Made by a program: the position numbers and the translations under genes
Source: Leisingera aquaemixtae
Lineage (GTDB): Bacteria; Pseudomonadota; Alphaproteobacteria; Rhodobacterales; Rhodobacteraceae
Assembly: GCF_001458395.1 (NCBI RefSeq)
Contig: NZ_CYSR01000027.1
Location: 1 to 64,000, forward strand
Direction of reading: 5' to 3'
Length of the DNA stretch: 64,000 nucleotides
Shown: in pieces, positions 1 to 56,084 of the stretch
How the letters are laid out: each line of letters opens with the position of its first letter
Position numbering within the stretch: the first letter of the stretch is position 1
The notes under the pieces: generated by a model
Database searches by the model: none
What the model was told of the DNA's origin: nothing
The model's input: the letters and a program-made list of their open reading frames with translations, nothing else

Positions 1-469
1 TGATCTGCTGAATGATCGCGTCCTGCCATTCCACGATGAACACGACCTGCCGGTGCTGCGGATCATGACGGACCGGGGCACGGAATACTGCGGCCGGGCC
101 GACAAGCACGACTACCAGCTCTTCCTGGCCATCAATGACATCGACCACACCAAGACCAAGGTGAAATCGCCCCAGACCAACGGCATCTGCGAGCGGTTCC
201 ACAAGACCATTTTGCAGGAGTTCTATCAGGTCGCGTTCCGCAAAAAGCTCTACGACAGCATCGGTGCGCTGCAAACGGACCTCGACGAATGGCTGCATAA
301 CTACAACCACCAACGCACTCATCAGGGCAAAATGTGTTGCGGCAGAACGCCGTTCCAGACCATGATTGAAGGCAAGCAGATCTGGAAGGAAAAGTTCGTG
401 AACTGAACTTGGCCTGACAGACGCCGCCGGAAAAACGGCCAACTGTCAGATCACATCTGAACCACTACA
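1..469 (+). mobile_element. IS481-family element, left copy, 3' end
   Basis: Positions 14-469 match, base for base as far as I compared, the reverse complement of 15387-15842 (456 bp each). Similarity stops at 469/470 on the inner side in both copies, which defines the element end: outer TGTAGTGG read inward, or CCACTACA on this strand. This agrees with the TGT...ACA termini of IS481. Upstream of base 14 the two copies differ: here the transposase frame simply continues, whereas the right copy joins an integrase gene. Confidence 0.85.
2..406 (+). CDS. IS481-family transposase, C-terminal part (cut by window edge)
   Basis: The reading frame is open from base 2 to the TGA at 404-406, so the gene starts left of the window. 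The visible part is the C-terminal half of a DDE transposase (rve/integrase-core fold). It shows the second catalytic Asp in TDRGTEYCG and the catalytic Glu in SPQTNGICERF, followed by the typical IS481-type ending around RTHQGKMCCGRTP. The first Asp and the N-terminal HTH would lie outside. From the codon for Val53 onward the protein is identical to the C-terminus of the chimeric ORF at 15450-16244, which is in the opposite orientation. The family call rests on remembered conserved motifs plus TGT...ACA element ends. Whether this copy is intact cannot be seen here. Confidence 0.85.
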   Translation, partial: DLLNDRVLPFHDEHDLPVLRIMTDRGTEYCGRADKHDYQLFLAINDIDHTKTKVKSPQTNGICERFHKTILQEFYQVAFRKKLYDSIGALQTDLDEWLHNYNHQRTHQGKMCCGRTPFQTMIEGKQIWKEKFVN

Positions 470-1528
470 GTATATGCGCCGCGCAACTTCACGATAATCG
501 TACCCCAAACGCCCAAACTTATGAAATGATGATGCTGGAAACGACCGAAAACTCACTGTCCCTCTACCTGTATATGTCGTATCCGCTCCAGACCGGCCGG
601 CATTGCCGCTTAGCGCTGCCTCAATATCCACTTTTGTCATCTCACGCCCGATTACAGCAGCCCGATTACGTGCCTTCAGGTCGTTTAACAGGTACATTGA
701 CCCCACCTCCTTTGACCAATGAGGTTTCACAATGAGAGTATGCATCGAACGTAGCCCACATTCGACTAAATGCTGGATCAGCCTCAGTTCACCATCATTG
801 ATACCGAAGGATAGCCTGCCACCTCGATCCATCGGAAATTTGTGCTTGATTTCGAAATGCCAGAGCTGGTTTTCACTGAGGAAAACGCGATCAACATTCC
901 AGACGTGACGAAACCAAGGCTGAATCCCCCAATTCAAGAAAATCCGCGAGAGCACAACATTTACACCCAGCTCCGACCCATGCCGCTCGGAAAGATAGCC
1001 CCAGAAACTCTGATTAATCCGGTTGCGATCTCGTACCTCGTTCTGGATCTTCGAAAATGAGCTGCCGGTCCGGCGTCCGGTGACGCTTGTCACTTCTTGC
1101 AAGGGAAGTTTTTCCCCGCGGAGCTCTCCATCAATGCATTTAATAGCAACGAACTCACCTTCGAGAAATTCGACAAACCACACAGGCATGCGAGAGTTTA
1201 GCGCTTGAAGATATCGGCCCAACCCATTGCCACGACTGCGCGCCCATACAAAAGCAGCAACACCTGCGTTCTGACCTGGAAGGCTCACCACTGCGGTGTC
1301 TACATCGACCAATTGAAACGTTTGACCTGTTTCCTCAGTCAAGGACAAGAGATATTGATCGAAGCAACTTTCGAAAACCAAGCCTTCGATGAGCTGGTGT
1401 TTATCCTCAGATAGAATGCGGGCGCATGTACCGTGATCTCTGAGGTCCAGGTCCTTCAATAAGCCAAATGGTGTCTGCATAAGTCTGTCTTGGGTACGCC
1501 GCTCACAAAGTATCAGCAGATATTTCAT
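446..1528 (-). CDS. Predicted PD-(D/E)XK-type nuclease, C-terminus replaced by IS end
   Basis: No overall family is recognised. The ATG at 1528 gives a start MKYLLILCE; a TTG at 1552 is also possible. About two thirds along (near residues 213-228) is NVDRVFL, then thirteen residues further HFEIKHK. This is an Asp...Glu-X-Lys arrangement on adjacent beta strands, typical of PD-(D/E)XK nucleases. It is followed by a predicted helix (NDGELRLIQHLVE) and a strand (MHTLIVKP). The last seven codons and the TGA stop (446-469) belong to the IS481 terminus, so the native C-terminus has been lost. It is the last gene on the left arm of the helicase cluster, separated from drmB by an IS21 remnant. An effector nuclease role is an inference from one motif and the context. 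Confidence 0.5.
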   Translation of the reverse strand: MKYLLILCERRTQDRLMQTPFGLLKDLDLRDHGTCARILSEDKHQLIEGLVFESCFDQYLLSLTEETGQTFQLVDVDTAVVSLPGQNAGVAAFVWARSRGNGLGRYLQALNSRMPVWFVEFLEGEFVAIKCIDGELRGEKLPLQEVTSVTGRRTGSSFSKIQNEVRDRNRINQSFWGYLSERHGSELGVNVVLSRIFLNWGIQPWFRHVWNVDRVFLSENQLWHFEIKHKFPMDRGGRLSFGINDGELRLIQHLVECGLRSMHTLIVKPHWSKEVGSMYLLNDLKARNRAAVIGREMTKVDIEAALSGNAGRSGADTTYTGRGTVSFRSFPASSFHKFGRLGYDYREVARRIYCSGSDVI

Positions 1529-1552
1529 GGCAAAATCAGGGACGCAACCCAA

Positions 1553-1859
1553 GGCTGTTCTATGTTATTGACGAAATCACTGACAATCGGCGTGGAGCTT
1601 TGGCTCTGAAGCAGATTTGGTGCAGACCAATATGCCAAGGGCCATATTTCGGAGGGCTTTGGATGAGGTTGCCGATGGCGTCACAGTTTTAACGGCGAGA
1701 TTTCCTGCCGACAGGTCTCAAGGCCAATCGGCCGAGGTTGTCGGGAGCACGGTCCGGATCCACTCCCATACCGCCAAAGCCGCGTCGCTGTGCCGCGCTG
1801 CGGCACGGTTTACGCCACGTTCACAGCAGGTACCGTCGCCGACCTGCCGATCTTCCTGC
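1553..1859. other. Non-coding stretch, nothing recognised
   Basis: This stretch lies between the nuclease-like gene and the recognisable IS21 remnant. Short open frames occur but none has a convincing start, ribosome binding site or known motif. It probably includes the decayed 3' part of the IS21 element and the 5' leader of the nuclease-like gene. Confidence 0.4.
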
Positions 1860-2147
1860 GCATGGCCGGAAGGTGGAACTGGTCCCGTGATGCCCGCGGG
1901 CCGTAGGCCGCCGCTTCGAGGCCGCGTTCCTAAATCTTGCGCACTGTCTTGCGGTCACAGCCAATTTTCCGCGCAATCGCGGAATTTCTGAGACCCTGTT
2001 TCTTCAGATCATGGATCAAAACGATCTCCCTCAGCCCCACTACCTGCCTGCCCCTGTCACTCTCTGTTTGGAGCATCATGCCCCGCCGCTCATGGCTGGG
2101 GATTTTTCAAACGGCGGATTTTGGGGAGATTACGTCCGGCGATTACA
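1860..2147 (-). mobile_element. istA: IS21-family remnant (istA 5' end, nonsense-mutated)
   Basis: On the minus strand, an ATG near 2077 opens a frame reading MMLQTESDRGRQVVGLREI, then IHDLKKQGLRNSAIARKIG and CDRKTVRK. This is the N-terminal helix-turn-helix of an IS21-type IstA transposase. A TAG codon follows directly where the family usually has Tyr (VRK-Tyr-ERGLE). The frame resumes as ERGLEAAAYGPR and then loses similarity. Outside the start, TGTAATCGCCGGACGTAAT (read on the minus strand from 2147) resembles IS21-type termini. No istB is visible, so the element is a dead fragment. It interrupts the operon between drmB and the nuclease-like gene. Confidence 0.75.
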
Positions 2148-2200
2148 GTGCATGGCCGTCCGGGAAACCGGACGGCAGCCAAAGCCAAGGGTGCTCAGCT

Positions 2201-3961
2201 TCAATCGAGCAAACTCTTGAAGAAAGACAGCGGCCCGGCGCTCAACAAGCTGCGGTCAAGAAAGCCGTTCCAAGCTTCGCAACTGGTCTCTGGTAAGAAC
2301 ACGCAATTGTGACAGGCCGCGTGGTTTCCGTTCGAGCCACTCCGCGCCACCCCCTCGGAACAGAGCGGATCAGCGGAGCAGAGCTCATGGTCAGCCAGCG
2401 CCTGCAATACCAGTTGTTCCATCCTCGCCGGTCGTGCCTGCCGTGAAAGCCCGCCCATCGTTCCGTCTGCGTCTGGCGTCGAGGTGTAGATTAGAAGTCC
2501 CGCCATGTCCGGCCCGACATACAGGCGTTCACGCAATGCACTTGAAGAATAGCCGCTGTCGAGTGACAGGCGCGCGATGAGTGCATGCGCCAGGGTGTGG
2601 ACCAGCATGTATCGCGCGTTGAGTTGGGACGGCGCACCATCCGCCTGCTTCCCCTCGGCTCGAGCCGTGTCCATGTGTGTTTGAATGAGCCGCTGAAGGT
2701 GCTCGACCACATCCGGCCGCCCCTCCCAGTTGGCAATGGCCTCGAGGTTCAGCGAGAGGAACACGCCTTCACCATGCATCGTAACCGCCGGCAACCATGA
2801 CAGGTCAGACCGGGACAGCGGTACCGCATCCGGGTTGCCGCCAACCTGCGCCTTCAGCCTCGTGAACCCCGTCAAGGCCCGCACTTCCCGCAAGCGTTCT
2901 ACCGAAGAAATCCAGGAAATCATTTCTGAGAATACGTCGGGCACAGGTTGTTGACGGTTCAGCAGGGTCAGCGCGTTTTCGTCGGAAGATGACGTGTCAG
3001 TCAGCAGCATCCGGAACTCGTCGCTTCGAAGGTTCTCTTCGGTCCCCAAATTGTCTTTCTTCATCTCCTTGAAACGACGGGCGATTTCCTCTGCACTCTC
3101 GGTGCCGTCCCAATTCGGCAGGACCTTCTTCTTGATGAAGGCGATCATCATGTCCTCGTCATCAAGGAAATCGAGCATGTCGATAAAGTCCGTGATCTTT
3201 TCCCTGAAGGGCACCTTCCAGTCCGGAAGAGTGATCGCGCTCTGCTCGATCGAGAAGTAGACATTGCTTGCGCCCCGCTGAGTGATTCGCGGCGCGGCCT
3301 CGCATCCAGTCTCGCGAACGCCAAACCACGGCCTGCCGCCTCGACACGCATGGTTCGGAATACCCTTGGGCGAGAATGCCTCAGCCATGGAACGCCCCGC
3401 ACCGCAGGACTTGCAGGTCAGCAGCAGTCCGCCAATGCCGGCGCCGACCGTCTTCAACGCCAAGACTGGCTGGGAACATCCGGTCTCGTGCGTCAGCCAC
3501 GACGTCCAGGGGAAATCGTCGAGGTGGCCATTCTCGCAAATCGTGACGAAACGGACAGGCACTACCGCAGGTTTGCCACGGCATTGGCCGCAATGCAGGC
3601 TGTCGCCGTTCCGCGAGGGTGACCATTGCCCGGAACGGTTGATGACATGGCACCTGGGACAGGAGAGCCAGTCGGGAAAGCGTTCGATCGGAAGCACACG
3701 GTCTTTGGTCTGTCCGTCCTTAAGGTAGGTTCCGACTGGGGGTGCCCTGAAATGATCGACGCCCAAAAACGCCTCGAGGCGTGGTTCCCGAACGATATCC
3801 TGCTTGTAGCCGCCTTTTGTGTAGGCCTCCCAGGCTTCCAGGCCTTGCATGACCCCTGAAAGCAGTGCTCCGCTTCCGGGCAACCGGAAGTCGACAATTG
3901 CCCCCGGACCGAAAGTCGAGATGATCTGGCTGCGGCGGATGCTGCCGACATTCTTGCTCAT
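2201..3961 (-). CDS. drmB: DrmB-like DUF1998 protein of a DISARM-related defence cluster
   Basis: The protein is 586 aa. The N-terminus (VGSIRRSQIISTFGPGAIVD) is typical of DrmB. Around residues 95-190 there are Cys pairs that look zinc-binding (LSCPRCH, LHCGQC, a CENGH motif, TCKSCG). The C-terminal part holds the DUF1998 signature (MLVHTLAHALIARLSLDSG, then SSALRERLYV) and a final Cys cluster (CHNCVFLPETSCE). In DISARM, DrmB works with the helicase DrmA to bind incoming phage DNA. The ATG at 3961 overlaps the drmA stop by 4 nt (ATGA), so the two are translationally coupled. Length and domain order match DrmB; the assignment is by remembered family features, not by search. Confidence 0.85.
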   Translation of the reverse strand: MSKNVGSIRRSQIISTFGPGAIVDFRLPGSGALLSGVMQGLEAWEAYTKGGYKQDIVREPRLEAFLGVDHFRAPPVGTYLKDGQTKDRVLPIERFPDWLSCPRCHVINRSGQWSPSRNGDSLHCGQCRGKPAVVPVRFVTICENGHLDDFPWTSWLTHETGCSQPVLALKTVGAGIGGLLLTCKSCGAGRSMAEAFSPKGIPNHACRGGRPWFGVRETGCEAAPRITQRGASNVYFSIEQSAITLPDWKVPFREKITDFIDMLDFLDDEDMMIAFIKKKVLPNWDGTESAEEIARRFKEMKKDNLGTEENLRSDEFRMLLTDTSSSDENALTLLNRQQPVPDVFSEMISWISSVERLREVRALTGFTRLKAQVGGNPDAVPLSRSDLSWLPAVTMHGEGVFLSLNLEAIANWEGRPDVVEHLQRLIQTHMDTARAEGKQADGAPSQLNARYMLVHTLAHALIARLSLDSGYSSSALRERLYVGPDMAGLLIYTSTPDADGTMGGLSRQARPARMEQLVLQALADHELCSADPLCSEGVARSGSNGNHAACHNCVFLPETSCEAWNGFLDRSLLSAGPLSFFKSLLD

Positions 3962-6900
3962 TGGATTTCCTCAGCCTCCGACGACGCAATTTCCTTGATG
4001 ACGAAGCCTGTTGATGGCTCGACTGCGCGCAACGTTCCCGGAGTGGCCCGTGCGAGCCCCTTGGTGAATCCGGATGCATTCGATGTCGCCTGTGCGTCAG
4101 CCGAGACCAGCAGAGCGTTGTCCGACCAGTTGTCCCAGTATTTCGGCAGCGATCCGCGACGCAACCAAAGTTCCAAGAATTTATCGAGTTCATGGCGGGC
4201 GGCGGCGGCTTCACCCGGGTCTACGTTGGATATCCGCTGACATATCATCTCGATCAGTGCTTTGAGTTCGGCCTTGTGTTTCGCCGCGGCCGACGGTGTG
4301 TCCAGCATGCCTGGCACCAAGTGCCGCGCCATGGCAACGAAGGGAGCATGGAGCGCCTTGTCGCGCGCCCTCGGTGCGAAGGGAGTTACCCCCGTCGCTT
4401 CTACATCCCGATAGAGGGCACCATGCCAGGTCGGGAAGGTCTCATAGCGGCTTCGGTCGCGGGACTTGCTTGCGTTGTAGAGCGTCACGACCAGCCCAGG
4501 CACCTTTCCGCGCCCGACACGGCTCGTCGCCTGGATGTATTCTGCGATGGTCTTTGGCTGACCGTTCACCAGCATTAAGCCCAGACGCCCGACGTCGAGA
4601 CCGACCGAGATCATGTTTGACGCGAGTACGACATCAGCCGCCTCGCCGCTGTCTCGGGTTGCATCCAGTTCCAAGAGCTTTTCACGGATCTCGTCAGACT
4701 TGACCCGACTCGTCAGTTCGGTCGGCGGATGAAGGTGGCGGGGCTCTTCGTCACGCCGTGCCGAAACCAGTTCGAGGCCGTGTGTGACGTCGTCCTGCAT
4801 TATAATCGACGCACTGCCGAGTTCGCGCAATGAGTTGAAGTAGCCGACGAGGGTCCAGTAGTGATCCTCCTCCACGCTGGAGAATGAAGGATCGGCAGCC
4901 GCCTGGAGGAGCGACGACGCGATGGCCTGATAGATGTAGCTGCCGGTGCGGCCCGCCGTGGTAATGCCCAAGTACAGCCGAGCGGGGCTGTCCTCTTCGA
5001 CACAGGCAAAGCCTGAATTGGAATGATGCAATCCTGGTGGTGGAAATTGCATGACAGTGCGGTCGAACAGGTTCAGTACCTGATCCGCCGCGCGCCGGAT
5101 CGTGGCCGTTGAGCCAATGACCTTTGGCCGTCGGTCGTCTCTGGTACACATTGCGTCGATGGCCGTCTCAAACAGGCCCGCCATGCTGCCCAAGGGGCCG
5201 GAGATGAGGTGCAGTTCATCTTGGATAATGAGGTCAGGCGGCAGGCGCCCAGCGTCACCAAGTCCGAAGAGACGACCGGTTTCTTTCTTCGTCACGATTT
5301 GGACGAACTTGTCTGCTGTTCCCAGAAGCAGCGTCGGAAGCTCGCGGTAGATGTCCTCGTCGACAGTCCAGAACGGAAGGTGATCGCGCGCCTGGCCCGA
5401 TCTGCATGTGGTGTCGCGACAGCATGCATGGATCCGGTCGCCGCTTTCAGCTATGTTCCAGTCCAACTGTGACCCACAGTCCGGACAATGTTCGATCTGT
5501 GCCGGGGAGCCGGTTTTTTTCGACTCAATTACCTTGTTCGGTGTCGTGTCCCTGCCGACCCAGAGGCCGATGGAGATGGGCGCACCTTGCGCGAGTGACG
5601 GTGGAATGCTGATACCGGGGCAGTCACAGTCGCCTGTCCGCAACAAATCGCAGGCGAGGATCATTGCTGCAGCCCGCTGGAACTGCTGTGCCGTCAACAG
5701 CCGCAACGTGTAACGCATCAACACGGTTACGCCATCCGTTTCCTTTGCGCCCTGCTGGCGACGAAGGAAAATTGTGTAGGCGGTCAACAGAAGATAGGCT
5801 TCTGTCTTGCCACCTCCGGTGGGGAACCAAAGAAGGTCCATCACACCTCGTTCCGGGTGATCCCTATCTCCTGTAGATGCCATGCAAAGAAGGACGAAGG
5901 CCATCTGAAACGGCCGCCATACCAGCGGAGAAACTTGGGAGTCCCGTTTCCGCTTCCATTCGTTCTGCTGCCACAGTGCGCGATTGGCGAGACGGAATGC
6001 GAGCATCTCTGGCCCATCTTTCTTGAGGAGATCGACGCCCCCTCGCATCCTCTTGAGCACGTTCCGACACTCATCCATATGTCGGCTCGCCGTTTTCTGA
6101 AACGTTGATAGCAGTGTGCCCACCTCGGGCTCACGGGCCGAAATCCAGTCGTCGTAACATGCGCAGAGCTCTTCGAGCGCAGCACATACATCAGCAGCGG
6201 GCGCAACGGACAGCCACTCGGACCCCAAGGCTCCCTCCAGCTTCGTCGCAACGAGCTTTGCAAAGTAGGTTGGATCTCCCTCCAGGCCGGGCGACCTGAC
6301 CAGCGTTGACGGCAGCCACTCGGTCGAGAGCCTTACCGTTCCATCCGGAAGATTTTCGCTTCGGATAGAGCACGTGTGTCCAGCACCATAGTCCGGCGCA
6401 TCGCGATACAGCAGTGCCGCTGTGGCGCGGTCTTCGTCGGGCACCCGCTGCAACGGATCCGGGCGTGGAACGATAGCGGCAAAATCCGGATCGGCTTCGA
6501 CGCTAAACCCGACCTGATGCAGGTTTCCAACATCCCGAAATCCGCGCTCAGGTATGTCTGGCATCACGTTCTGGTTCAGAAGGATAATCGTTACAAGGTA
6601 CAGGTCGCCATGCCTGCGAGCGCGCAGCCAGAGAGCCAAATCCGGGATGTCAGGGACATCGTATTTACCGTCCCTGTCGCCAGGAAGTTCGATGGACATC
6701 AGTGCCGTCAGGGGCTTTCGTGTCCAGTCAAGACGCGGCCGACCATCTTCGGATTCGGCACGTGGACTGGCCTCGTACCGGGATGCCGAGATGTCCAGGC
6801 TTAGCAGGACATTTTCGCCATCGTTGGGGCGCACCGCGAATGACAGTCCAGCCGAGCTTGGGCGAAACGTGTCCGGCGGCACGCGGGAACCAGCATCATC

Positions 6901-7098
6901 TTCCTCATCAGATGCAAATACCGCGCCCTCCGTCTCATCTGCCCTATGGGGGCTTTTCTGGGCAAAGAGGATGCCGGTCATGTAGATTTCTGACGGGCTG
7001 TCATGCAGGATCTCGTTTACGGAAAGAGGTCCCATCAGATCCTGTCTGAGGCGCTCGACCATACGCTGGCGTGCAGCGTCTGCGACGTTACCTGTCAT
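3958..7098 (-). CDS. drmA: DrmA-like SF2 helicase of a DISARM-related defence cluster
   Basis: The protein is 1046 aa from the ATG at 7098, which has GAGGG eight bases upstream. A longer frame runs to 7560 but overlaps the preceding gene and is not needed. Helicase motifs are seen in order: Walker A WFPTGGGKTEAY near residue 427, a four-Cys segment HCPDCGSQ...CCRDTTC between the helicase motifs, DELHLISG (motif II) near 628, GSTATIRRA (motif III), SNMISVGLDVGRLG (motif V) and QATSRVGRG (motif VI) near 861. The DELH box and this C-terminal signature are typical of DrmA. It overlaps the UvrD-like gene upstream by 11 nt and drmB downstream by 4 nt, so the three form one transcription unit. Predicted role: ATP-driven DNA translocase or sensor with DrmB. 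Confidence 0.88.
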   Translation of the reverse strand: MTGNVADAARQRMVERLRQDLMGPLSVNEILHDSPSEIYMTGILFAQKSPHRADETEGAVFASDEEDDAGSRVPPDTFRPSSAGLSFAVRPNDGENVLLSLDISASRYEASPRAESEDGRPRLDWTRKPLTALMSIELPGDRDGKYDVPDIPDLALWLRARRHGDLYLVTIILLNQNVMPDIPERGFRDVGNLHQVGFSVEADPDFAAIVPRPDPLQRVPDEDRATAALLYRDAPDYGAGHTCSIRSENLPDGTVRLSTEWLPSTLVRSPGLEGDPTYFAKLVATKLEGALGSEWLSVAPAADVCAALEELCACYDDWISAREPEVGTLLSTFQKTASRHMDECRNVLKRMRGGVDLLKKDGPEMLAFRLANRALWQQNEWKRKRDSQVSPLVWRPFQMAFVLLCMASTGDRDHPERGVMDLLWFPTGGGKTEAYLLLTAYTIFLRRQQGAKETDGVTVLMRYTLRLLTAQQFQRAAAMILACDLLRTGDCDCPGISIPPSLAQGAPISIGLWVGRDTTPNKVIESKKTGSPAQIEHCPDCGSQLDWNIAESGDRIHACCRDTTCRSGQARDHLPFWTVDEDIYRELPTLLLGTADKFVQIVTKKETGRLFGLGDAGRLPPDLIIQDELHLISGPLGSMAGLFETAIDAMCTRDDRRPKVIGSTATIRRAADQVLNLFDRTVMQFPPPGLHHSNSGFACVEEDSPARLYLGITTAGRTGSYIYQAIASSLLQAAADPSFSSVEEDHYWTLVGYFNSLRELGSASIIMQDDVTHGLELVSARRDEEPRHLHPPTELTSRVKSDEIREKLLELDATRDSGEAADVVLASNMISVGLDVGRLGLMLVNGQPKTIAEYIQATSRVGRGKVPGLVVTLYNASKSRDRSRYETFPTWHGALYRDVEATGVTPFAPRARDKALHAPFVAMARHLVPGMLDTPSAAAKHKAELKALIEMICQRISNVDPGEAAAARHELDKFLELWLRRGSLPKYWDNWSDNALLVSADAQATSNASGFTKGLARATPGTLRAVEPSTGFVIKEIASSEAEEIQ

Positions 7099-9394
7099 TT
7101 TCAATTCCCTCATTTCCAATGCTTCGCGCAACGCCCTGAAGCACCGGCAGCAAAGCCACCGCATTGATTCTGCCGTCGCTCCGACGGTCAACAACCGTTG
7201 ATGCCCCGACAACCCGAATGGTGCCAGAAGCGATACCTCCCCTCGTGGCTTCGATATGATCGAGGCCATCAGCCAGCGTTCCTTGCACCTCGGCCAAAGG
7301 CTCTCCACCTTCGGAGACGAGATGCCAAGGCGCGCCCTCGGTAAGCGCAGCCCTCCGGAACGAGCAGCTCGGTTGCCGGAATGCTGCTTCCCAGACAGAC
7401 AGGGCCGGTGCGACCCCGGAAAGAGGGCGTAAACCCTCCGTGCCGGACAAAAGAAGGCCTCCAGAACTGCCGCGCAACCATCGGCTGCCGTTCCGCCCGG
7501 GCCGAACAATGGCTGATTGCGCTCTGCCAAGATAAAGGTTCGTTGACGCCCTTGTCGCACCTACGAATAGAACCCGGGCTTCCTCCTGCCAGTCGACATC
7601 GTCACCAGATGGAACAGGTGGCAGCATGAGGAGGACGTTTGACGCCTCTCGGCCTTTCGCACCGTGGATCGAACCCAGCAACGGACCTGCGGTGCCGACA
7701 TGATCACATGTATGTTCCACCGGTTTCCGATCAATTGTTTCGCCGATGTCCTGTAGGCGCGTCGCAGGTCCATTCCCGAGGGCTTGGAGGTCGGAGAGCA
7801 CGTCCTCTTCGGACAGCTCGAAAGGCGCAGGGTGAAGGCTTGCAAGTCGCCGTCGCACATGCTCGAGACGAACTGTCGAGCCGGGAGCAAGTCCAGCACA
7901 GATCGCGCCCAACAGAGGATTGCAAACCGTGGTCTGGCCAGAAAGTTTCAGGCGATGCGTACGGGCGGCCCGCGTCAACCGAACTGAAGCTGCCTCTGTT
8001 GCGGCGCGTCCCCGAAATAGGATCAGGCTGTCATCCCGCCACGGGAACACCGGCCCGGTCAGGCTCACGTTCGGGTCCGTCGCCACATCCTCGAGCATGT
8101 CCCGGAGTTCGAGGTAAGTCGAACGCGGGTCACCTCCGGCCTCAAGCAAAGCCCGGGCATACCCAAAGAACTGTCGCAAGGCGGCCGACCTTGTCCGATG
8201 GTTCGCGGTCAATTGGCGGCCTTCCCAACCGCGTCCATCCCGAAGGTCGGCGTGAAGGGATCCTCCGCCCTCTTTGTCACCCGCCCACGATCCGTAGATT
8301 GCCTGTGCACTGTCGCCCAGTATAGTGACGCCGACGCTCGCAGGTAGGGCGTCGATCATGGCGTGGCAGAACATCCGCCGTTCGCCGACGATATCCTGCG
8401 CCTCGTCAATCACCAGATGCGCTATGTGCGACAGCTGATCCAGCATGGCCTGCTCACCTTCAGCGATCGACTTGCGCGCGGTGCGGATGATCCGCTCATG
8501 TCCGCCGGGAGGGGCATCGCCGAGTGTCGTCACAAGGTTCCACGCCAGCGAGTCGATGGTCCCGCACATGACGCCGCCCGAGTAGGTATGTTCGCCCAAG
8601 GTGTCTGATATACGACGACCCACCTCTTCCGCTGCGACCCGGGTGAACGTGATGATTCGGATACGTGCGGGAGAAAGCCCCTGCTGCACAAGATGGATGA
8701 CGCGTTCGGTGGCCGTGTGTGTCTTGCCGCTGCCGGGCCCCGCTGTGACGATCTGCCGAGCGCTTGCGGGGCGCTCGATGACGGCTGACTGCGACAAATC
8801 GGCGGCATTTTCCTCTGCCCGAGGCCGAGGAAAATGCTCGCGCAACCAGGTTGATGCGTTCTCAGGGACCGGCTGGCCAGGCACGACGCCAGCCAGACAC
8901 AGTACGCGTGTTACTGCATCAGAGGGCCCAGCATCCAAGGACCAGACACACGTATCCAGAATCTGCCATAGACCGGCAACATCAGCATCGGAAAGTTGCC
9001 CGACCAAATCGAAGAAACTGACTGCATCGGTCGGAACCAGATCCGTTTCGCGTAATAGTCCATGAGGCTCGCCTTGCGACGGATCGCCACCCAGTAGGAT
9101 GCATCGGTCCCCTTTGCACAGTACCGACACCGCTCGCCGTTTGACGAGGACCCTGTCACCGTAGGACCGGCCGGAACCGAGATCGCCACACTTCACCAGC
9201 GCGGATACGACAACTTCGGCCTGCCGCTTTGCTTCTGTTTCAGCCATTCCGTCGGCAACGGCAGCGGCGCTCAGACCTGTGATTGCCCGCGATGCAGCCA
9301 CGGCGCCCAGATCAAAAAGATCCCTGCGCAACTGTGCCGCGAGTTTCTGTCCCAGGGCGAGAGTGTACAAGGTATCGGCATCGGTATTTTGCAT
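7088..9394 (-). CDS. UvrD/Rep-type SF1 helicase, first gene of the drmA-drmB arm
   Basis: A complete set of SF1A motifs is present: TAGPGSGKTHTATERV (Walker A, near residue 218), ITFTRVAAEEVGRRI, LVIDEAQDIVGERR (motif II, near 331), ILGDSAQAIYG, LTANHRTRS, SIHGAKGREASNVLLML and VLFVGATRASTNLYLGR (motif VI). About 200 residues precede the helicase core and about 150 follow it, with no domain I can name. I chose the ATG at 9394 (MQNTDADTLYTL); a TTG at 9457 would add 21 residues. The gene overlaps drmA by 11 nt. UvrD-like helicases are not part of canonical class 1 or 2 DISARM, so this is an unusual partner. Confidence 0.8.
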   Translation of the reverse strand: MQNTDADTLYTLALGQKLAAQLRRDLFDLGAVAASRAITGLSAAAVADGMAETEAKRQAEVVVSALVKCGDLGSGRSYGDRVLVKRRAVSVLCKGDRCILLGGDPSQGEPHGLLRETDLVPTDAVSFFDLVGQLSDADVAGLWQILDTCVWSLDAGPSDAVTRVLCLAGVVPGQPVPENASTWLREHFPRPRAEENAADLSQSAVIERPASARQIVTAGPGSGKTHTATERVIHLVQQGLSPARIRIITFTRVAAEEVGRRISDTLGEHTYSGGVMCGTIDSLAWNLVTTLGDAPPGGHERIIRTARKSIAEGEQAMLDQLSHIAHLVIDEAQDIVGERRMFCHAMIDALPASVGVTILGDSAQAIYGSWAGDKEGGGSLHADLRDGRGWEGRQLTANHRTRSAALRQFFGYARALLEAGGDPRSTYLELRDMLEDVATDPNVSLTGPVFPWRDDSLILFRGRAATEAASVRLTRAARTHRLKLSGQTTVCNPLLGAICAGLAPGSTVRLEHVRRRLASLHPAPFELSEEDVLSDLQALGNGPATRLQDIGETIDRKPVEHTCDHVGTAGPLLGSIHGAKGREASNVLLMLPPVPSGDDVDWQEEARVLFVGATRASTNLYLGRAQSAIVRPGRNGSRWLRGSSGGLLLSGTEGLRPLSGVAPALSVWEAAFRQPSCSFRRAALTEGAPWHLVSEGGEPLAEVQGTLADGLDHIEATRGGIASGTIRVVGASTVVDRRSDGRINAVALLPVLQGVARSIGNEGIENDR

Positions 9395-9499
9395 TCCGCG
9401 TTCTACTCGACCTAAAGTAATGACACGCCTATTGAAAAGTGCCTCGAACCGCTCCAATCATGTGCCATATTATTGGCGTCTGCGTGACGAAATGAAAAG
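9395..9499. promoter_or_regulatory. Divergent promoter region of the defence cluster
   Basis: This 105-bp gap separates the UvrD-like gene (leftward) from the 979-aa gene (rightward) and must hold the start signals for both arms. It is visibly richer in A+T than the neighbouring coding DNA. I could not assign convincing -35/-10 pairs or an operator, and no regulator gene lies nearby. Confidence 0.45.
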
Positions 9500-12439
9500 A
9501 TGAATGACTTGATCGCCGGTGAAAATCTGCTGGCGCAGATTTTTTCAGATCTGTCCCGGCAACGGGACGGTAGAAATATCTACCTGATAGAGCACGGGCT
9601 TGACCGCGACAAAATCGAGGAATTGCTATACCTTGTCGGCCTTAGGGCCGGGCTGCACCAATTCACGAAACAGGCCTGGCAAGACTTCCCACTGTCGCTA
9701 TGTGTGACCGTGACCGAAATTGGCTATGAATACAGGGGAACCGGAACTGACTTCTGGCCAATGATTGAATCAGCAATCAATGTCGAAATCCCAATCCCAC
9801 AACGTGGTGTGATCTCCGATTTGTTCCGGGACTGCGCCAGACGCTTCGGAACAGTGCGACCACTTGACGATGCGTGGTCCTCGGTCTTCCCACACATTGC
9901 ATGGCCGATCCGCAATGCCATGGTTCCCCGTGAAGTCCACGGCCCCTTGGCACGCCTTGTCAGGGAATTCCTGAGCCAGACCCGAAGCATGAGCGTGACC
10001 CGGACCATGCTGCCTGGCCTTTGGGAACTCGCGCGCGGCTTCGATTCCCGACGACTTGAGTCCTGGCTCCAGGATGATGACCTTGCGCTCGCGGTGATCG
10101 GCCATCTCGTCACTGGACGGGCGGGCGACCTGAGCATGGAACCCGGTTTCATGCAGCGTCTCAGTGAAGACCTCCGCTCCGAGAGCGAAGTTAGACGCCT
10201 CGAACGCGCCATTAAAGCTCGGCGGCTTGCCCGGTATCAGGGGCTGGGAAACCTTCCCAAGGCAACCTACGAGCTTCTGCTTGATGAGGCTGAAGCATAC
10301 GGTCTGGCCGTCAGGGGGCCGTGCCTCACCCCCGCAGAAATCGAAGCCGTCAGGTCCGAGCTCGATACTCCATTGTCTAATTTAACCGTAACCGTCGGAG
10401 CGAGATCCACGACACTCGAGCGTTTCCTCAGTGGCGATGCCGTCTTCATCGGGCGGCCCATTAGCGAGGTTCCTCAACCGCAAGTCACCGGAATTGATGA
10501 GCCCGAATGGTTGGAAGCCGTCATCGTTCCTGCTCAAGGTCTGCTCTTCCGAGATGAAGGTGACGACGGGTACCAGACGCAACTCAGACCCACTGACAGG
10601 GTGACTTCGGGATTGTCATTCTACGAACTGGTTCTTGAAGGGCTAACCTCCAATGAATGGGGAGACGGGCTGTACCATTTTGTGAGCGGAACTCCGGAGG
10701 GCGATGACGTGCTGGCCAGGCATGGGATCCATGTCAAAGCCGAGCCTCTTATTGATTTTCTCGGAGGCCTGACCCTACAAAATGACGCAGCCACCGTGAG
10801 TCAGGCTTTTGGACGCCCGGTTCAGGCGCGGACCAGGATCCCAGTTGCGATCATCGCAGAGCGCCTTGACCAGTCGGAGAGCATTGAGTTCCGGCTTGAT
10901 GACGACCGTTGGCACACATTGCCGATGACAGAGGGGATCTGGACCCTATCCCCAATCGACACCTCGAAGGCCCCACCAATCGATCTTGTGTTCCGCGATA
11001 TCGAGCCACCAGCCCCCGTGACCCTGTCTCTTCAACCGAATGGCATTGGCCTTTTGGAAATCGCGCGCGGAGCTGGTGTGCTGCATCTCTCGACGCCGAT
11101 CACATTACACGATGTCGACATTGACATCATGCTGGAATCCAGTGACGGCCAATCCAAAACTGTGCGCATCCGCACACCGGGCTCGCCCACGAGGATCACA
11201 TTTGACCAACCCGAGTTCTCCGAATTCCGGTCCGCGGCACGTCTTTGGACCGGAGGTGGAATGCATGCCCGTCTGCGGGTCCATGCAGAAGAGCTGGACG
11301 CCCGATCTTGGATCTTGGCGGCACCGGAGCCGGAATGGAAGTATGATCGCCGAAGCAGAAAGTGGATAAGGGAAGGCCAGGAACCGGTGGAATCGCTGGT
11401 CTGCGATCCCGTGACATCGTGTACCACTTTTCTGCTAAGCAGTCCGTTCTCCACCAATCTGTCGTCGGGATATGGGCTCCTACGCCCGACCGCATCGAGC
11501 GATGCTGCGTTGCGAAGTTGCGTGCTGGAAGAGCCGGAAGCGGGCACGATCCTTGAAGGACTGCCCCATTGTGTTGGAGATCAAATTCTTCGCCTCGCGG
11601 AAACCCAGGATGATGCCTGCGGCTTGACCAACGGGTTTGAAGCTTATCTCAGTTGGAGCCTCGCCAAGGCTAAAACCGCGATTGGCGAAAGCCTCAGATC
11701 GAACGCCTGCCGATGCCTTGAGGATCGGCTGGTCGCCGCGCTCTGCGGTGATCTCTGGATAAACACGGAAAAATCCTGTCGCGGCCTGGGAACCGGTTTC
11801 CACCGGCGGTTGGTCGCAGAAGCCTTGAGGGCAGGTCTCGCTTGTGACACCACCGCTTTCTCGCCGCTGAACGAGGATGAGAAGCTTGAGTTGACCGGCT
11901 TTCTGGAGGACGGCTTTCGACGCGCTTTGCCCGCACCAGATCTCATCGTCATTCCCGACGGCGAGATGTGGCCGGAAATGGACGATGCGGTTATTGACGC
12001 GTGGGAGCGGCTTTCGAAGAAGGCTACATCCAACGGCACTTCGGAGCTCGAATTCGACGCAGGTAACGCCGATGGAAGCTGGCAGAAAGTCGTGGTCCGC
12101 GCCCGTGATGCGGCCCGCCTTCCTGAGTTGACCGCGCTCCTGCTACCATCAAAGCGCGCTGCCAACCTCGAAAGGGTTCTGTATGAAAGCAGCCACCTGG
12201 ACGATCTGATCGCCGCCCTTGTTTCCAGCCACGCAGACGCTCAGTCCCGCAGCGGTCGGTGGATTGCCCCTGCTGACCTGCGCGCCCTGTTGTATCTGTT
12301 CCTTGCCCCGGAACGCGTCATGGATGACCCAGAATGGCGGGGCAGATTGCTGCGTTTCGGGGCGGACCGTTTCACTGCACGCGCCGTGCGATATACAGCC
12401 CTGCGCTACCGTGCGATGGCGAGAAATGGCCTTTCATGA
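9500..12439 (+). CDS. Large protein of unknown function, coupled to SNF2-type helicase
   Basis: The protein is 979 aa and matches no family I recognise. The ATG at 9500 is preceded by the purine-rich GAAAAG. No transmembrane segment or signal peptide and no nucleotide-binding motif is apparent. Residues 1-260 look alpha-helical and charged. Residues from about 290 to 620 look beta-rich, with alternating short strands (e.g. LSNLTVTVGARST, VTLSLQPNGIGLLEI), suggesting one or more Ig-like or jelly-roll modules. The C-terminal third looks helical again. The stop overlaps the start of the SNF2-type gene by 4 nt (ATGA at 12436-12439), so the two are made together and probably act together. A scaffold or adaptor role in the defence complex is inference. 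Confidence 0.6.
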   Translation: MNDLIAGENLLAQIFSDLSRQRDGRNIYLIEHGLDRDKIEELLYLVGLRAGLHQFTKQAWQDFPLSLCVTVTEIGYEYRGTGTDFWPMIESAINVEIPIPQRGVISDLFRDCARRFGTVRPLDDAWSSVFPHIAWPIRNAMVPREVHGPLARLVREFLSQTRSMSVTRTMLPGLWELARGFDSRRLESWLQDDDLALAVIGHLVTGRAGDLSMEPGFMQRLSEDLRSESEVRRLERAIKARRLARYQGLGNLPKATYELLLDEAEAYGLAVRGPCLTPAEIEAVRSELDTPLSNLTVTVGARSTTLERFLSGDAVFIGRPISEVPQPQVTGIDEPEWLEAVIVPAQGLLFRDEGDDGYQTQLRPTDRVTSGLSFYELVLEGLTSNEWGDGLYHFVSGTPEGDDVLARHGIHVKAEPLIDFLGGLTLQNDAATVSQAFGRPVQARTRIPVAIIAERLDQSESIEFRLDDDRWHTLPMTEGIWTLSPIDTSKAPPIDLVFRDIEPPAPVTLSLQPNGIGLLEIARGAGVLHLSTPITLHDVDIDIMLESSDGQSKTVRIRTPGSPTRITFDQPEFSEFRSAARLWTGGGMHARLRVHAEELDARSWILAAPEPEWKYDRRSRKWIREGQEPVESLVCDPVTSCTTFLLSSPFSTNLSSGYGLLRPTASSDAALRSCVLEEPEAGTILEGLPHCVGDQILRLAETQDDACGLTNGFEAYLSWSLAKAKTAIGESLRSNACRCLEDRLVAALCGDLWINTEKSCRGLGTGFHRRLVAEALRAGLACDTTAFSPLNEDEKLELTGFLEDGFRRALPAPDLIVIPDGEMWPEMDDAVIDAWERLSKKATSNGTSELEFDAGNADGSWQKVVVRARDAARLPELTALLLPSKRAANLERVLYESSHLDDLIAALVSSHADAQSRSGRWIAPADLRALLYLFLAPERVMDDPEWRGRLLRFGADRFTARAVRYTALRYRAMARNGLS

Positions 12440-15222
12440 ACACCCTTCATCTCACACAATCGGGTTTTCACGCCCTTGAGCGCTTGGTCGCAGCCGAATC
12501 TTGGGAGATGGGTGGAGCCCTTGGCGTCGCGGCTGACCCCTATCCGCATCAGATAGAAAACCTGCGCCGCATCCTTGCTGATACGGAAATCCGCCACCTG
12601 CTTGCTGATGAGGTAGGCATGGGCAAGACAGTGCAGGCATTGATGGTCCTGAACGTCCTGCGACGGCGCGATCCGTCGCTGAGGGTAGCAGTCGTCGCTC
12701 CGGAGCGGATCTGCTATCAGTGGCAGGTCGAACTGTCAGCTCGTGGACACATCGCAGCCCGCATTCTTTCAGACGCAGATGAAGCCGAGGAACACCCGGA
12801 TGGCGAAGGCCACGTCCATCTGATCAAGGCTGACATGATCCGCAGACAACCGGCACGCCCTTCGCCGGAAGACTATGACATGCTGATCGTGGACGAGATC
12901 CACGCCATGAACCTTGACGACGCAGCTTTCCTTTCCAGCCTTTGCCGTGAGCGCCGTGATGCTCCTCGGTTCAGGCATGTGCTTTTGTTGACTGCAACGC
13001 CGCGACTTGGAAATCCTTCTTGGGCGCGTGCTGTCATCGGCGCCATCGAACCCGAACGCACAGAAATCGCCAGTATTCTCGGCCTCGAACCCCTCGACTT
13101 TCTTGCTGAAGACGCCGCTGCGGCGCAGGAACGTGTGTTGGACGGAACCCTTTCGGCTGAGGCGTACAAGACGGCGTTCGCGGGAGATCGCCGAATCCTG
13201 CGCCAGACACGCACCCAATGGCCGGGCATTGCGCCGTTGAGAAAGGTGCACACTGTCCGAACCGCGCCTTCCGATGCCGAGATGCCGAAGATCTTGCTGC
13301 AAAACGCAGTCTGTCGCGACGGTCGGGACAACCCTCTCGAGTCAGCACCATGGCTGCAGTGCCGTCAGATGTTCCGCGCTGCATCCAGTTTGCGCGACGT
13401 GCTGCGCCACCGGACGTTCTCGGCGCATTCGGAGCTGCGCGACGAGGTGGAAACGACCCTTTCTCGCAATCCCGGCAATGCGCTGTTTGATGATCTCTGC
13501 GATGTATTGCTTGGCTTCTGGCGCAGGGACCCTGAGCGGCGTATCATCATTGTCGCAGGAGACACGCCAACCGTGGATATGCTGGAACGGCGCCTGACCG
13601 ACATGTTCCCGCACCTTTCAGACGACGGCTTCGCGACCATGCGCGGTCGCCACAACACGGATATGGTGGACGTTGTGGGGGCAATTCAGAGCCAGGCGAC
13701 GGTGCTGATCATGGAGGAGTTCGTCGAAGCGGGTCTCAACCTGCACAACTTTGCCGCCGACATGATCTTCTTCAATCTTCCATGGCAGGCAGCGCGGATC
13801 GACCAACTCATCGGCCGTCTCGACCGGCTGCGTTCCGGCGGGCTCAGCGCCTACTTGAAGTGTCGGAGCGTGGGCACCATCGGTATATGGCGGATGGTCG
13901 TCGCCGGCTCGGCAGATGAAAGGGTACTCGAGGCGCTCGACCTCCTTGACGTCTTCGAACATCCCTTACCTTACCTCGATGAAGCGCTGTCCCAACGCAT
14001 CGACAGGATCATCGCTGATGCGGCGGCGGGACGGGCTGACTTCAGGGAGGCTGCTGTTGCACTGAAAGAGGAGCTTTCCTTCGGTCTGAAGGCGTCGGCA
14101 GTAAGTGCTCCCTTGGTCGAACCAGAGGGCGAAGATGAAATCACCAAGATCGTAGACAGCATTCGTGCTGCGGAGCATGCGGGGAATGCTTGGCTGCGCC
14201 TCCTGCACGCGAGTGGTGCGTTGAAAGGCGGATTTCCGAAAGCCAACGATGGCGAGCGCGTCGCGACACTATCATTGCCGGAACTCGTGGAAATCTGCCC
14301 TTACAACCTTGGTGCAATGACGACGCGGGAAACCGAGGTATTTCGGTGGCGTCGGGACCGACTAGGACGGCCACCAAAAAAGGACGTCATCCTGCCAAGG
14401 GATCGGCGGGGCAAACGTGCGCGTTTTTTCTCGACAGGCGATGAATTGCACGACGACCTGGTCCTTCAGGCTTACAATGCGTCCAGAACCCAAACCGTTT
14501 CTCCAGTACCTGTTGGTGTCTATTTGTCCGAGGAAGCGTTGGCGGCAAATTTGGTCGGCAAGACGCTGCTCCTCGTTCGCACCGCCTGTAGACCATCGCT
14601 GATCCAGGATCGGAAACTCAAGGCCGGCGAAGACAACTCTCCTGCCGTCCGGATAGGACGCGCTGCTGACCGTCGCTGGATGTCCACACTGTTTCCGGAC
14701 ACAGTCAGGACCCGGTGCATTGTGGTCTCTGATGATGGCGAGGTACAAGTCGGTTCGGACAAAATCATTCGGGCCCTCCTGAGCGAAGAGTGCAGACCGA
14801 CAACGAACCGGCAGATTCAAAAGACTCTTCAGCCGTTCCACGCAGCCCAGAAATTTATCACCGTTCTTGAACGGAAAATGGCGCAAGAGGAGCGCCAGCG
14901 CCTTGCCACTTTGCGCGATGCGGCGTTGATCGCGCTTTCGGATAGAAGGCAGATCCTCACGTCCGAAACCGAGACTTACGTTCGATGGAAGCTGCGCAGA
15001 ATCGAACAGCTGCGGTCACGCAATATTCAGGACCAGCAACAAATCCAGATGAACGAAGGGCAGATTGCCGCTGAACAGCGACGCATGGAAACGCGTATCG
15101 CAGGGATGACCGATCGGTTGCGGCTTCTGGAGGACGGAGTACTGCGACACTCGGAGCATCTGTCGCCGGAAACCTTGATGATACTTGTTAGAGTGCTGCC
15201 GCAGGACCATCTCGGAAACTGA
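12436..15222 (+). CDS. SNF2-type SF2 helicase (DrmD/DpdE-like)
   Basis: The protein is 928 aa from the ATG at 12436 (MNTLHLTQSGF), which sits in an ATGA overlap with the upstream gene. Motifs: YPHQIENLRRIL (Q-like) at about 37-48, LLADEVGMGKTVQALMVL (motif I) at about 55-72, LIVDEIHAMNL (DEIH form of motif II), LLTATPRLG (motif III), EEFVEAGLNLHNF (motif V) and DQLIGRLDRLRSG (motif VI) near 460. The last 120 residues are strongly charged and heptad-like (QLRSRNIQDQQQIQMNEGQ), indicating a coiled coil. SNF2-like helicases occur in class 1 DISARM (DrmD) and in the Dpd 7-deazaguanine DNA system (DpdE). I cannot decide between those from sequence alone. Confidence 0.8.
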   Translation: MNTLHLTQSGFHALERLVAAESWEMGGALGVAADPYPHQIENLRRILADTEIRHLLADEVGMGKTVQALMVLNVLRRRDPSLRVAVVAPERICYQWQVELSARGHIAARILSDADEAEEHPDGEGHVHLIKADMIRRQPARPSPEDYDMLIVDEIHAMNLDDAAFLSSLCRERRDAPRFRHVLLLTATPRLGNPSWARAVIGAIEPERTEIASILGLEPLDFLAEDAAAAQERVLDGTLSAEAYKTAFAGDRRILRQTRTQWPGIAPLRKVHTVRTAPSDAEMPKILLQNAVCRDGRDNPLESAPWLQCRQMFRAASSLRDVLRHRTFSAHSELRDEVETTLSRNPGNALFDDLCDVLLGFWRRDPERRIIIVAGDTPTVDMLERRLTDMFPHLSDDGFATMRGRHNTDMVDVVGAIQSQATVLIMEEFVEAGLNLHNFAADMIFFNLPWQAARIDQLIGRLDRLRSGGLSAYLKCRSVGTIGIWRMVVAGSADERVLEALDLLDVFEHPLPYLDEALSQRIDRIIADAAAGRADFREAAVALKEELSFGLKASAVSAPLVEPEGEDEITKIVDSIRAAEHAGNAWLRLLHASGALKGGFPKANDGERVATLSLPELVEICPYNLGAMTTRETEVFRWRRDRLGRPPKKDVILPRDRRGKRARFFSTGDELHDDLVLQAYNASRTQTVSPVPVGVYLSEEALAANLVGKTLLLVRTACRPSLIQDRKLKAGEDNSPAVRIGRAADRRWMSTLFPDTVRTRCIVVSDDGEVQVGSDKIIRALLSEECRPTTNRQIQKTLQPFHAAQKFITVLERKMAQEERQRLATLRDAALIALSDRRQILTSETETYVRWKLRRIEQLRSRNIQDQQQIQMNEGQIAAEQRRMETRIAGMTDRLRLLEDGVLRHSEHLSPETLMILVRVLPQDHLGN

Positions 15223-15386: not shown

Positions 15387-15842
15387 TGTAGTGGTTCAGA
15401 TGTGATCTGACAGTTGGCCGTTTTTCCGGCGGCGTCTGTCAGGCCAAGTTCAGTTCACGAACTTTTCCTTCCAGATCTGCTTGCCTTCAATCATGGTCTG
15501 GAACGGCGTTCTGCCGCAACACATTTTGCCCTGATGAGTGCGTTGGTGGTTGTAGTTATGCAGCCATTCGTCGAGGTCCGTTTGCAGCGCACCGATGCTG
15601 TCGTAGAGCTTTTTGCGGAACGCGACCTGATAGAACTCCTGCAAAATGGTCTTGTGGAACCGCTCGCAGATGCCGTTGGTCTGGGGCGATTTCACCTTGG
15701 TCTTGGTGTGGTCGATGTCATTGATGGCCAGGAAGAGCTGGTAGTCGTGCTTGTCGGCCCGGCCGCAGTATTCCGTGCCCCGGTCCGTCATGATCCGCAG
15801 CACCGGCAGGTCGTGTTCATCGTGGAATGGCAGGACGCGATC
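15387..15842 (-). mobile_element. IS481-family element, right copy: 3' fragment only
   Basis: This is the inverted copy of 14-469. It holds the transposase C-terminal 130 codons, stop at 15450-15452, and the terminal sequence ending at 15387. Homology stops abruptly at 15842/15843 inside the transposase gene, so the 5' half and the other terminal repeat are absent. The fragment cannot transpose by itself. The sharp end suggests a deletion or a recombination event between the IS and the integrase gene rather than a clean insertion. Confidence 0.85.
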
Positions 15843-16244
15843 CCCGGCCGCGCAAAGGGCAGGCTGCACGAGAGACCAGTCCTTGAACTTCATTGCGTCA
15901 CGCAATGCCTGGTTCTCGGCCTTGAGGGCCGCAATTCTTTCATCGATTTCCTGGTCGGACAGGGCTGTCTCTGAATTCTGCTCCTGCAGGATGCGATTGA
16001 GATCCTTTCGCAGTATTGCTTTCAGCAGAGCCTCTGCTTCACTCGGCGAAATCTCATTTTGTTTCAGGGCGTCCACGATTTCCGGTTCCTTCTGCTCGTA
16101 GACCGCGAGCAGGCTTCCGGCCCGCACCACGGCGTCGAGCGGGAACTCGGTACGTAAAGAGAGACGCAAAAACCGGTTTGATACGCCGCCAGAAATTTTT
16201 CGGGGCAGGCGTTTCATGAAATAAAACGTACGGCCGCGGCGCAT
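15450..16244 (-). pseudogene. Tyrosine integrase N-terminus fused in frame to IS481 transposase C-terminus
   Basis: From the ATG at 16244 the first 134 residues (MRRGRTFYFMKRLPRKISGG, FLRLSLRTEFPL...) resemble the N-terminal, DNA-binding part of tyrosine integrases with a DUF6538-type start. A coiled-coil-like stretch follows (IDERIAALKAENQALRDA). At 15843/15842 the frame passes without a stop into the IS481 transposase (DRVLPFHDEHDLPV...). The integrase catalytic domain (R-H-R-Y) is missing, as are the transposase HTH and first catalytic Asp, so neither activity is expected. The ORF lies directly 3' of tRNA-Gln in the same orientation, the usual place for an island integrase. Confidence 0.8.
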
Positions 16245-16305
16245 GAGATAAGGGCCGGCGCGGGTGCGTCCCCGGGCGCGGTATCCGATTTTGGAACTGG
16301 AGGGG

Positions 16306-16347: not shown

Positions 16348-16401
16348 CGGCGAGTGCAAGGGAGCGATTTTCCCTTGTTTTCCTGAGTTTTCAGAGAAAG
16401 T

Positions 16402-56073: not shown

Positions 56074-56084
56074 CCGCCGGAGCC

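Follow-up and report, generated by a model that had tools for sequence, protein, structure and literature searches.

A DISARM-related helicase cassette with a new signature protein in Leisingera aquaemixtae and the cytosine-C5 methyltransferase and Vsr genes that usually lie near its relatives

We analyzed a window of 64,000 nucleotides from Leisingera aquaemixtae (positions 1 to 64,000 of contig NZ_CYSR01000027.1, here C27, assembly GCF_001458395.1), which carries a cassette of five conserved genes coding for DrmB, DrmA, a UvrD-type helicase, a protein of 979 amino acids (aa) and an SNF2-type helicase. Judged from gene content and sequence comparison, this cassette represents a class of its own that is related to DISARM and marked by a new signature protein, the 979-aa protein, and it is usually found near modules that pair a cytosine-C5 (C5) methyltransferase with Vsr. 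With a probability of about 0.58, we propose that it is a restriction-like anti-phage cassette that would use cytosine-C5 methylation as self mark. The five core genes form two divergent groups, with drmB, drmA and uvrD on the minus strand and the 979-aa and SNF2 genes on the plus strand:

2201–3961, minus strand: DrmB, DUF1998/MZB protein, 586 aa, core (NCBIfam NF038324, 478 bits, cut-off 240; Pfam MZB)
3958–7098, minus strand: DrmA, YprA-type superfamily 2 (SF2) helicase, 1046 aa, core (PADLOC DrmA, 666 bits)
7088–9457, minus strand: UvrD/GajB-like superfamily 1 (SF1) helicase, 789 aa, core (Pfam UvrD, 72.5 bits)
9500–12439, plus strand: 979-aa signature protein (above no family cut-off in Pfam, PADLOC or NCBIfam)
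12436–15222, plus strand: SNF2/RapA-like SF2 helicase, 928 aa, core (Pfam SNF2, 35.8 bits; start at 12436 likely)

An earlier note on this DNA, made from the sequence alone, had recognised DrmA and DrmB as a coupled pair accompanied by UvrD and SNF2 helicases and a 979-aa protein of no known family, and all of this is upheld by the profile scores and by a 4-bp overlap between drmB and drmA. DrmA also matches the NCBIfam DrmA model at 827 bits, under its equivalog cut-off of 950, and the DrmA structure 7s9v in the PDB (E 1.8e-129). Its open reading frame (ORF) of 1200 aa includes 154 codons upstream of the likely start; with the corrected start at 7098, which is likely, uvrD and drmA overlap by 11 bp, and a further 4-bp overlap joins the 979-aa and SNF2 genes. 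The best PADLOC match of the UvrD-type helicase is GajB (68 bits). It bears an N-terminal extension of ~235 aa, and the AlphaFold2 (AF2) model of residues 1–237 has a predicted local distance difference test (pLDDT) of 82 and is good beyond residue 28; its Foldseek matches are weak, many of winged helix-turn-helix (wHTH) type and none significant, and the model weakly suggests that the extension is in part wHTH-like. For the SNF2 protein, the best NCBIfam match is DpdE at 145 bits (cut-off 500), and DISARM DrmD is matched at 91 bits (cut-off 610).

All five core genes are conserved, full length and under purifying selection. Compared with relatives L025 and L019 (L numbers designate loci), the ratio of non-synonymous to synonymous substitution rates (dN/dS) is 0.06 and 0.13 respectively for DrmB, 0.08–0.11 for DrmA, 0.12–0.18 for UvrD, 0.13–0.18 for the 979-aa protein and 0.10–0.14 for SNF2, values that are partly saturated because dS is 0.6–1.1. 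The helicase motifs are intact (TGGGKT, the Walker A of DrmA; GPGSGKT; DELH of DrmA; DEAQ; DEIH), the SNF2 Walker A having been read by eye, and across relatives a strict Walker A pattern is found in 42/43 SNF2, 33/33 DrmA and 27/34 UvrD rows, as well as in 27/28 rows of the NERD partner described below.

The SNF2 gene directly follows the 979-aa gene in all 45 mapped loci, the window included. These remained from 48 rows after removal of L012, L013 and L014, which duplicate L019, L029 and L032; partial relatives of the 979-aa protein in four genomes (G431, G470, G639, G988) lie outside the mapped set. Eleven loci make up the clade of the window, with the order DrmB-DrmA-UvrD/979-SNF2, and the ten others are 73–81% identical to the window in the search of the genome collection with the 979-aa protein; one of them, L021, is split across two contigs. 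Outside this clade, 19 of the 25 DrmAB-type loci have the order NERD-DrmB-DrmA-UvrD/979-SNF2, L043 with an interrupted NERD frame, and the six exceptions are L035, L044 and L048 (contig ends), L040 and L042 (degenerate) and L052 (NERD not found). L009 is a near copy of L008 and was excluded from these 25, from the 30 loci assessed for methyltransferases and from the 44 loci searched for DrmC; the two are near-identical cassettes on Rhizobium plasmids, one of them with several interrupted frames.

The 979-aa protein belongs to no family recognised above a cut-off. Scans of members of its own family, 36 of them with the PADLOC models and 8 with those of Pfam, gave stray weak matches only, and a family profile search of the PDB returned a single match (E 0.2). 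The AF2 model (mean pLDDT 79, predicted template modelling score 0.46) has a helical N domain, a beta-rich middle and a helical C domain that bears a RAxRYxALR motif; no enzymatic motif was recognised, and Foldseek found nothing in the PDB at E<=0.001, the top rows being mostly Ig/FnIII-type and complement proteins. A single-protein search found it in at least 4/295 genomes of the family, and a profile search in at least 4/385 genomes of the class and 3/398 of the phylum, own genome included in each; these are lower bounds, few first-look candidates having been scored per genome. It is present at 39 loci of the genome collection, whose titles are mostly Alphaproteobacteria with one Bryobacterales metagenome-assembled genome, and in 6 plasmid records, with no match in phage records. 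In Thalassococcus profundi, a member of the window clade (L026, 10001–11039), the 979-aa gene is broken, and the other four core genes look whole.

The earlier note described a separate set without DrmC rather than a damaged DISARM, and the comparison with class 1 DISARM supports it. In a DrmA tree of 43 rows, five class 1 DISARM DrmA form one clade (100/98), and the 32 cassette DrmA together with those of L112 and L113 form a separate one (100/99); the DrmA linked to the 979-aa protein are thus not a clade alone, since L112 and L113 are nested inside, and the deep joins of the tree are unsure because branches are long. L112 (Rhizobium plasmid) and L113 (Shinella plasmid) carry UvrD-DrmA-DrmB-NERD without 979-SNF2, and in L113 C5-Vsr pairs lie on both sides of this set (353–2339 and 20735–22778). 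A tblastn search with two DrmC found none in 44 cassette loci (positions 1–26000 of the window included), and one with five class 1 proteins found no class 1 DrmM there; as controls, the queries recovered their own DISARM loci. The nearest signals were a single 51-bit phospholipase D-like (DrmC) match in the far right flank of L020 (L074) and one 40-bit match to class 1 DrmM in flank L095. On the DrmA tree and the DrmC/DrmM searches of the 44 loci, we rejected a damaged class 1 DISARM. A crude motif pattern also picked out amino-methyltransferase-like ORFs at L077 693–2309 (far right flank of L030) and L071 2446–3684 (L055).

In these gene orders, the nuclease that regularly accompanies the family is a NERD-UvrD protein, which the subclade of the window lacks. 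This partner combines an N-terminal NERD domain with a UvrD-like motor, and its pattern GE-DF..EVKGG is nearly invariant in 26/28 rows, the two dropped being of odd length. The NERD protein of L008 (5823–7490) matches PADLOC RTasNERD-Hel, of DRT systems, at 198 bits, and nuclease-helicases of this kind may also act in defence based on reverse transcriptases.

Eight further loci, one of which (L053) is a second copy of the species of L011, leaving seven distinct, are of another type, in which 979-SNF2 faces a gene of ~330 aa, NERD and a large fused YprA helicase. Three of these helicases (L010, L046, L050) match DruE1 at 1528, 1430 and 914 bits, and the three DUF4338 neighbours in the same loci match DruA1 at 584, 934 and 653 bits; no match to DruB-D was obtained among the proteins scanned in these loci. 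The 979-SNF2-NERD set thus accompanies either DrmAB or a Druantia-I-type helicase.

Concerning methyltransferases, the statement of the earlier note that none is present holds for what can be seen of the window, with no PF00145 C5 methyltransferase on its contig and no class 1 DrmM, the left side being unseen; it does not hold for the family. A C5 methyltransferase (PF00145) lies within 15 kb of the 979-aa gene in 21/27 assessable DrmAB-type genome loci, and near 24/30 when plasmids L007 and L008 and locus L021 are added. L021 was scored as having one since its second contig piece, L125, bears DrmA-DrmB-C5-Vsr-EcoRII-C; L031 was scored as having none with a right flank of 3.5 kb only; L017 stands outside the count, and L032, L044, L048 and L052 were excluded because their contigs are too short. 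Most PF00145 rows were used, those omitted being fragments, on other contigs or far off. These neighbourhoods, in which Vsr mostly accompanies the C5 gene, do not support the proposed sensing of phage DNA by means other than self-methylation, though six relatives have no C5 gene nearby. Homologous loci carrying both a methyltransferase and drmC, which had been named as the finding that would speak for a damaged DISARM, were seen for the methyltransferase half only, drmC having been found in none of the 44 loci searched.

The C5 methyltransferase was near none of the eight DruE-type loci, and the contrast with the DrmAB type gives a Fisher p of 6e-5, which is indicative only because the rows are related. 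Vsr lies within ~3 kb of the C5 gene in 22 of the 24 loci; the exceptions are L007, where 3.4 kb separate the two within one gene row, and L028, whose contig stops next to its methyltransferase and leaves any Vsr out of view. By comparison, Vsr is beside C5 in 6 of 19 distant C5 regions of the same genomes (20 were hand-picked, and L125 was removed as belonging to a cassette).

The modules that bring the C5 gene differ widely. A MvaI/BcnI endonuclease is found in L008, L022, L029 and L039, and an EcoRII-C-type module in L021, L035, L047 and L049, as well as in L038 by a 372-bit match; Vsr, EcoRII, MvaI and BcnI are enzymes of CCWGG or CCSGG sites. L007 has C5, an unnamed gene, a DUF2357 gene and Vsr, and L112 is alike. 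Seven loci (L027, L034, L036, L041, L042, L043, L045) have C5 and Vsr with no probed restriction protein beside them; two methyltransferases of this kind were scanned and had DrmMII as best PADLOC match (276 and 282 bits), and among nine C5 enzymes scanned in all, from relatives, own contig C12 and L112, two were best matched by DrmMII and seven by Type II models. In six loci of the window clade a MORC-like operon, convergent and just beyond drmB (L082 13247–19643, with like regions in L083 and L085–L088), holds C5, Vsr, a GHKL ATPase (PADLOC MzaB, 166 bits), HNH, SNF2 and EcoRII-N. MORC operons with SNF2, HNH, EcoRII-like and Vsr genes are among those described in PMC2292703; at the cassette they form a separate convergent operon, which was not found in the visible window.

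How such a cassette would act can be outlined from its gene set, conservation, selection and neighbourhoods, and from these we infer a defence role, a complex, an order of steps and a self mark. DrmAB would load on invading DNA that is unmodified and exposes ends or single-stranded stretches; unwinding or stripping of this DNA would fall to the UvrD and SNF2 motors, with the 979-aa protein perhaps holding the complex together; the cut would be made by the NERD nuclease or by the neighbouring restriction module; and host DNA would be spared through a cytosine-C5 mark set by an accompanying methyltransferase of Dcm or DrmMII type. This outline draws on properties of Serratia DrmAB, described as binding 5'-overhang DNA and having lower ATPase activity on DNA with 5-methylcytosine (PMC9142583), and on ARMADA II, described as protective with all its genes required (PMC12458937).

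Several points weigh against the proposal. Six DrmAB-type loci have no near C5 methyltransferase (L019, L030, L031, L033, L037, L040), and L019 is the nearest relative of the window; three of these genomes carry C5 paired with Vsr on a different contig (L142 for L030, L127 for L031, L123 for L037), perhaps by chance. Among the neighbours are several complete restriction-modification (R-M) systems, which may be independent passengers of the island. The scaffold role of the 979-aa protein is a guess, Foldseek having given no significant fold. Finally, the copy in the window may be incomplete, since it has neither NERD nor a visible methyltransferase, and in its subclade the cutting step would need another nuclease.

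A broader and more tentative idea, for which we claim somewhat less than for the methylation-marked cassette itself, is that 979, SNF2 and NERD form an exchangeable immune module that can sit on DrmAB (with UvrD) or on DruE, and that the DrmAB form is tied to cytosine methylation of CC(W/S)GG type. It is suggested by repeated pairing with unrelated modules that share only C5 and Vsr (MvaI/BcnI, EcoRII-C, MORC with EcoRII-N, DUF2357, and C5 alone, of which the two tested are DrmMII-like).

The alternative that survives best, though we hold it to be rather unlikely, is that of a Gabija- or Druantia-like helicase-nuclease defence which does not depend on methylation and responds to DNA ends or stalled replication, with the C5-Vsr R-M modules as co-resident cargo only. 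Such a system would account for the 979-SNF2-NERD set doing without a near C5 methyltransferase at all eight DruE-type loci and for the 6/30 DrmAB-type loci that also lack one, and the UvrD partner is indeed GajB-like. It sits poorly, however, with five kinds of module, at both ends of the cassette, all of which contain C5, and with the presence of Vsr in 23 of 24 loci (3.4 kb off in one of these, and hidden by a contig end in the 24th) against 6/19 in distant C5 regions.

The surroundings of the cassette in the window bear on another alternative, and contain the following features:

1–469, plus strand: C-terminal half of an IS481-type transposase, a contig-end repeat at the assembly break, matching the 456-bp copy at 15387–15842 (minus strand)
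446–1552, minus strand: 368-aa ORF, read as a Dcm-type R-M accessory, its last codons running into the end of the insertion sequence (IS)
1560–2200, no strand assigned: debris including a transposase helix-turn-helix-like stretch, called by eye in a direct reading of the sequence
15387–15842, minus strand: inverted second IS half, truncating an integrase fragment (repeat comparison)
15843–16476, minus strand: DUF6538-type integrase fragment (Pfam DUF6538, 31 bits), adjoining tRNA-Gln at 16402–16476 (ARAGORN)

The 456-bp IS stretch has six identical copies in the genome, at the start of the window, at 15387–15842 (minus strand) and four on other contigs; the left neighbour of the window is unseen because its first base is the end of contig C27, inside the repeated IS half. 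The locus looks like a tRNA-type island in which IS elements were inserted later. We found no tRNA genes beside relatives of the window clade (ten loci, three of four right flanks) apart from one tRNA-Arg in L074, and no relatives of the DUF6538 integrase fragment in cassette loci other than the window itself. Farther along, at 47157–47304 and 56078–56229, the window has two 150-bp repeats that are 75% identical and contain a palindromic core of ~40 bp each.

The 368-aa ORF had been taken for a PD-(D/E)XK nuclease and sixth gene of the set, a view that the data do not support. It matches no profile in Pfam, PADLOC or NCBIfam, and no homologue was found in the retrieved stretches of the other cassette loci, mostly ±10 kb. 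The tblastn search found homologues in 5 plasmid records, and the three examined (L109, Photobacterium; L110, Acidiphilium; L111, Spirosoma) each have as neighbours dcm, vsr and a gene for a type II restriction endonuclease. A role as cassette nuclease was thus rejected, the cassette has five conserved genes and not six, and we read the ORF as a probable accessory of a Dcm-type R-M module. This company hints that a small contig of the same genome, C12, which carries a C5 methyltransferase and a MvaI/BcnI endonuclease and has N-terminal halves of the same IS at both ends, may adjoin the left end of the window; the junction is not provable because five contig ends bear a matching IS half, and the left end of C12 also shares 66 bp with contig C34. 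A search for the MORC module in the genome of the window gave only two methyltransferase-like pieces, on C12.

These flanks give some ground to the idea, which we regard as improbable, that the locus is a decayed, nonfunctional remnant from which IS insertions removed NERD and the R-M neighbour: IS halves lie on both sides, the integrase is cut, the contig ends there, and the debris at 1560–2200, between the 368-aa ORF and drmB, occupies the slot that NERD fills in most relatives outside the window clade, and the MORC module in others. However, each of the five genes has its full length, the helicase motifs are intact and dN/dS is 0.06–0.18, and as none of the 11 loci of the clade has NERD, its loss is old. 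A simple class 2 DISARM minus drmE and drmC, which the presence of DrmA and DrmB and of DrmMII-kind C5 enzymes by some relatives (2/9 scanned) might recall, is highly improbable given that UvrD, 979, SNF2 and NERD are conserved additions, that DrmC is found in 0/44 loci, and that the sole class-2-like reference added to the DrmA tree, L143, groups elsewhere, though on a long branch. L143, a Lactiplantibacillus locus with a DrmMII-type methyltransferase, an 801-aa protein without PADLOC match, DrmA and DrmB, was labelled class-2-like by ourselves.

Set beside known systems, the cassette shares with class 1 DISARM (DrmD, DrmMI, DrmA, DrmB, DrmC) the DrmA-DrmB pair with its 4-bp overlap and an SNF2 helicase nearby, whereas neither DrmC nor a PglX-like adenine methyltransferase was found next to the cassette, its DrmA is on another branch, and it adds UvrD, 979 and, outside the window clade, NERD. 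Neither DrmE nor GajA, the latter being the Gabija partner that might be expected beside a GajB-like UvrD, was among the PADLOC matches of eight window proteins (the best 25 of 41 for UvrD and the best 25 of 32 for SNF2). The nearest relation of the SNF2 protein is with DpdE of the Dpd system, below cut-off, and the cassette DrmB is a separate gene. Druantia type I shares, in eight relatives, 979-SNF2 with NERD and a large YprA helicase, whereas the window carries DrmAB and UvrD without DruE or DruA. TALON combines an ARMADA-like YprA with NERD, TPR-CSD and TBP genes, and NERD is absent in the window.

ARMADA Type II, as far as described in PMC12458937, shares the trio of motors, namely SNF2/RapA-like, YprA-like and GajB-like UvrD. 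It differs in that its YprA (YprA-OB-DUF1998) is fused with a Vsr-type nuclease, whereas DrmA and DrmB are separate genes, in that its operon holds a PglX-like methyltransferase, which tblastn did not find at the cassette, and in that ArmD has a RelE-like domain, whereas the extension of the cassette UvrD is weakly wHTH-like. Membership in ARMADA II through a RelE-UvrD protein was rejected, no RelE being among the best 50 of 255 Foldseek matches of the extension model. Our literature search recognised no paper describing this gene set, though the supplementary tables of PMC12458937 may list the class.

Two other arrangements of DISARM-type genes were observed. In a Sphingomonas parapaucimobilis plasmid (L118, 4881–17327), a class 1 set (drmD, methyltransferase, drmA and a DUF1998 gene) lies between cas3 and casA of a type I-E CRISPR-Cas system. 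In two Photobacterium plasmids (L109 4248–12014, L122 2734–10464), DrmA-DrmB is followed by an SF1-type ATPase and an unknown protein of ~480 aa, with Dcm and restriction endonuclease genes farther along.

A 2025 survey of YprA-type helicases indicates that the DISARM-like clade contains many uncharacterised classes (PMC12458937, legend of Figure 1). The cassette described here would be one bounded, concrete class of this kind, and its signature protein makes the class searchable. The finding of one module with both DISARM-type and Druantia-type helicases suggests that an immune system can exchange its helicase partner as a whole, and the steady company of C5 and Vsr makes it testable how multi-helicase systems spare their own DNA.

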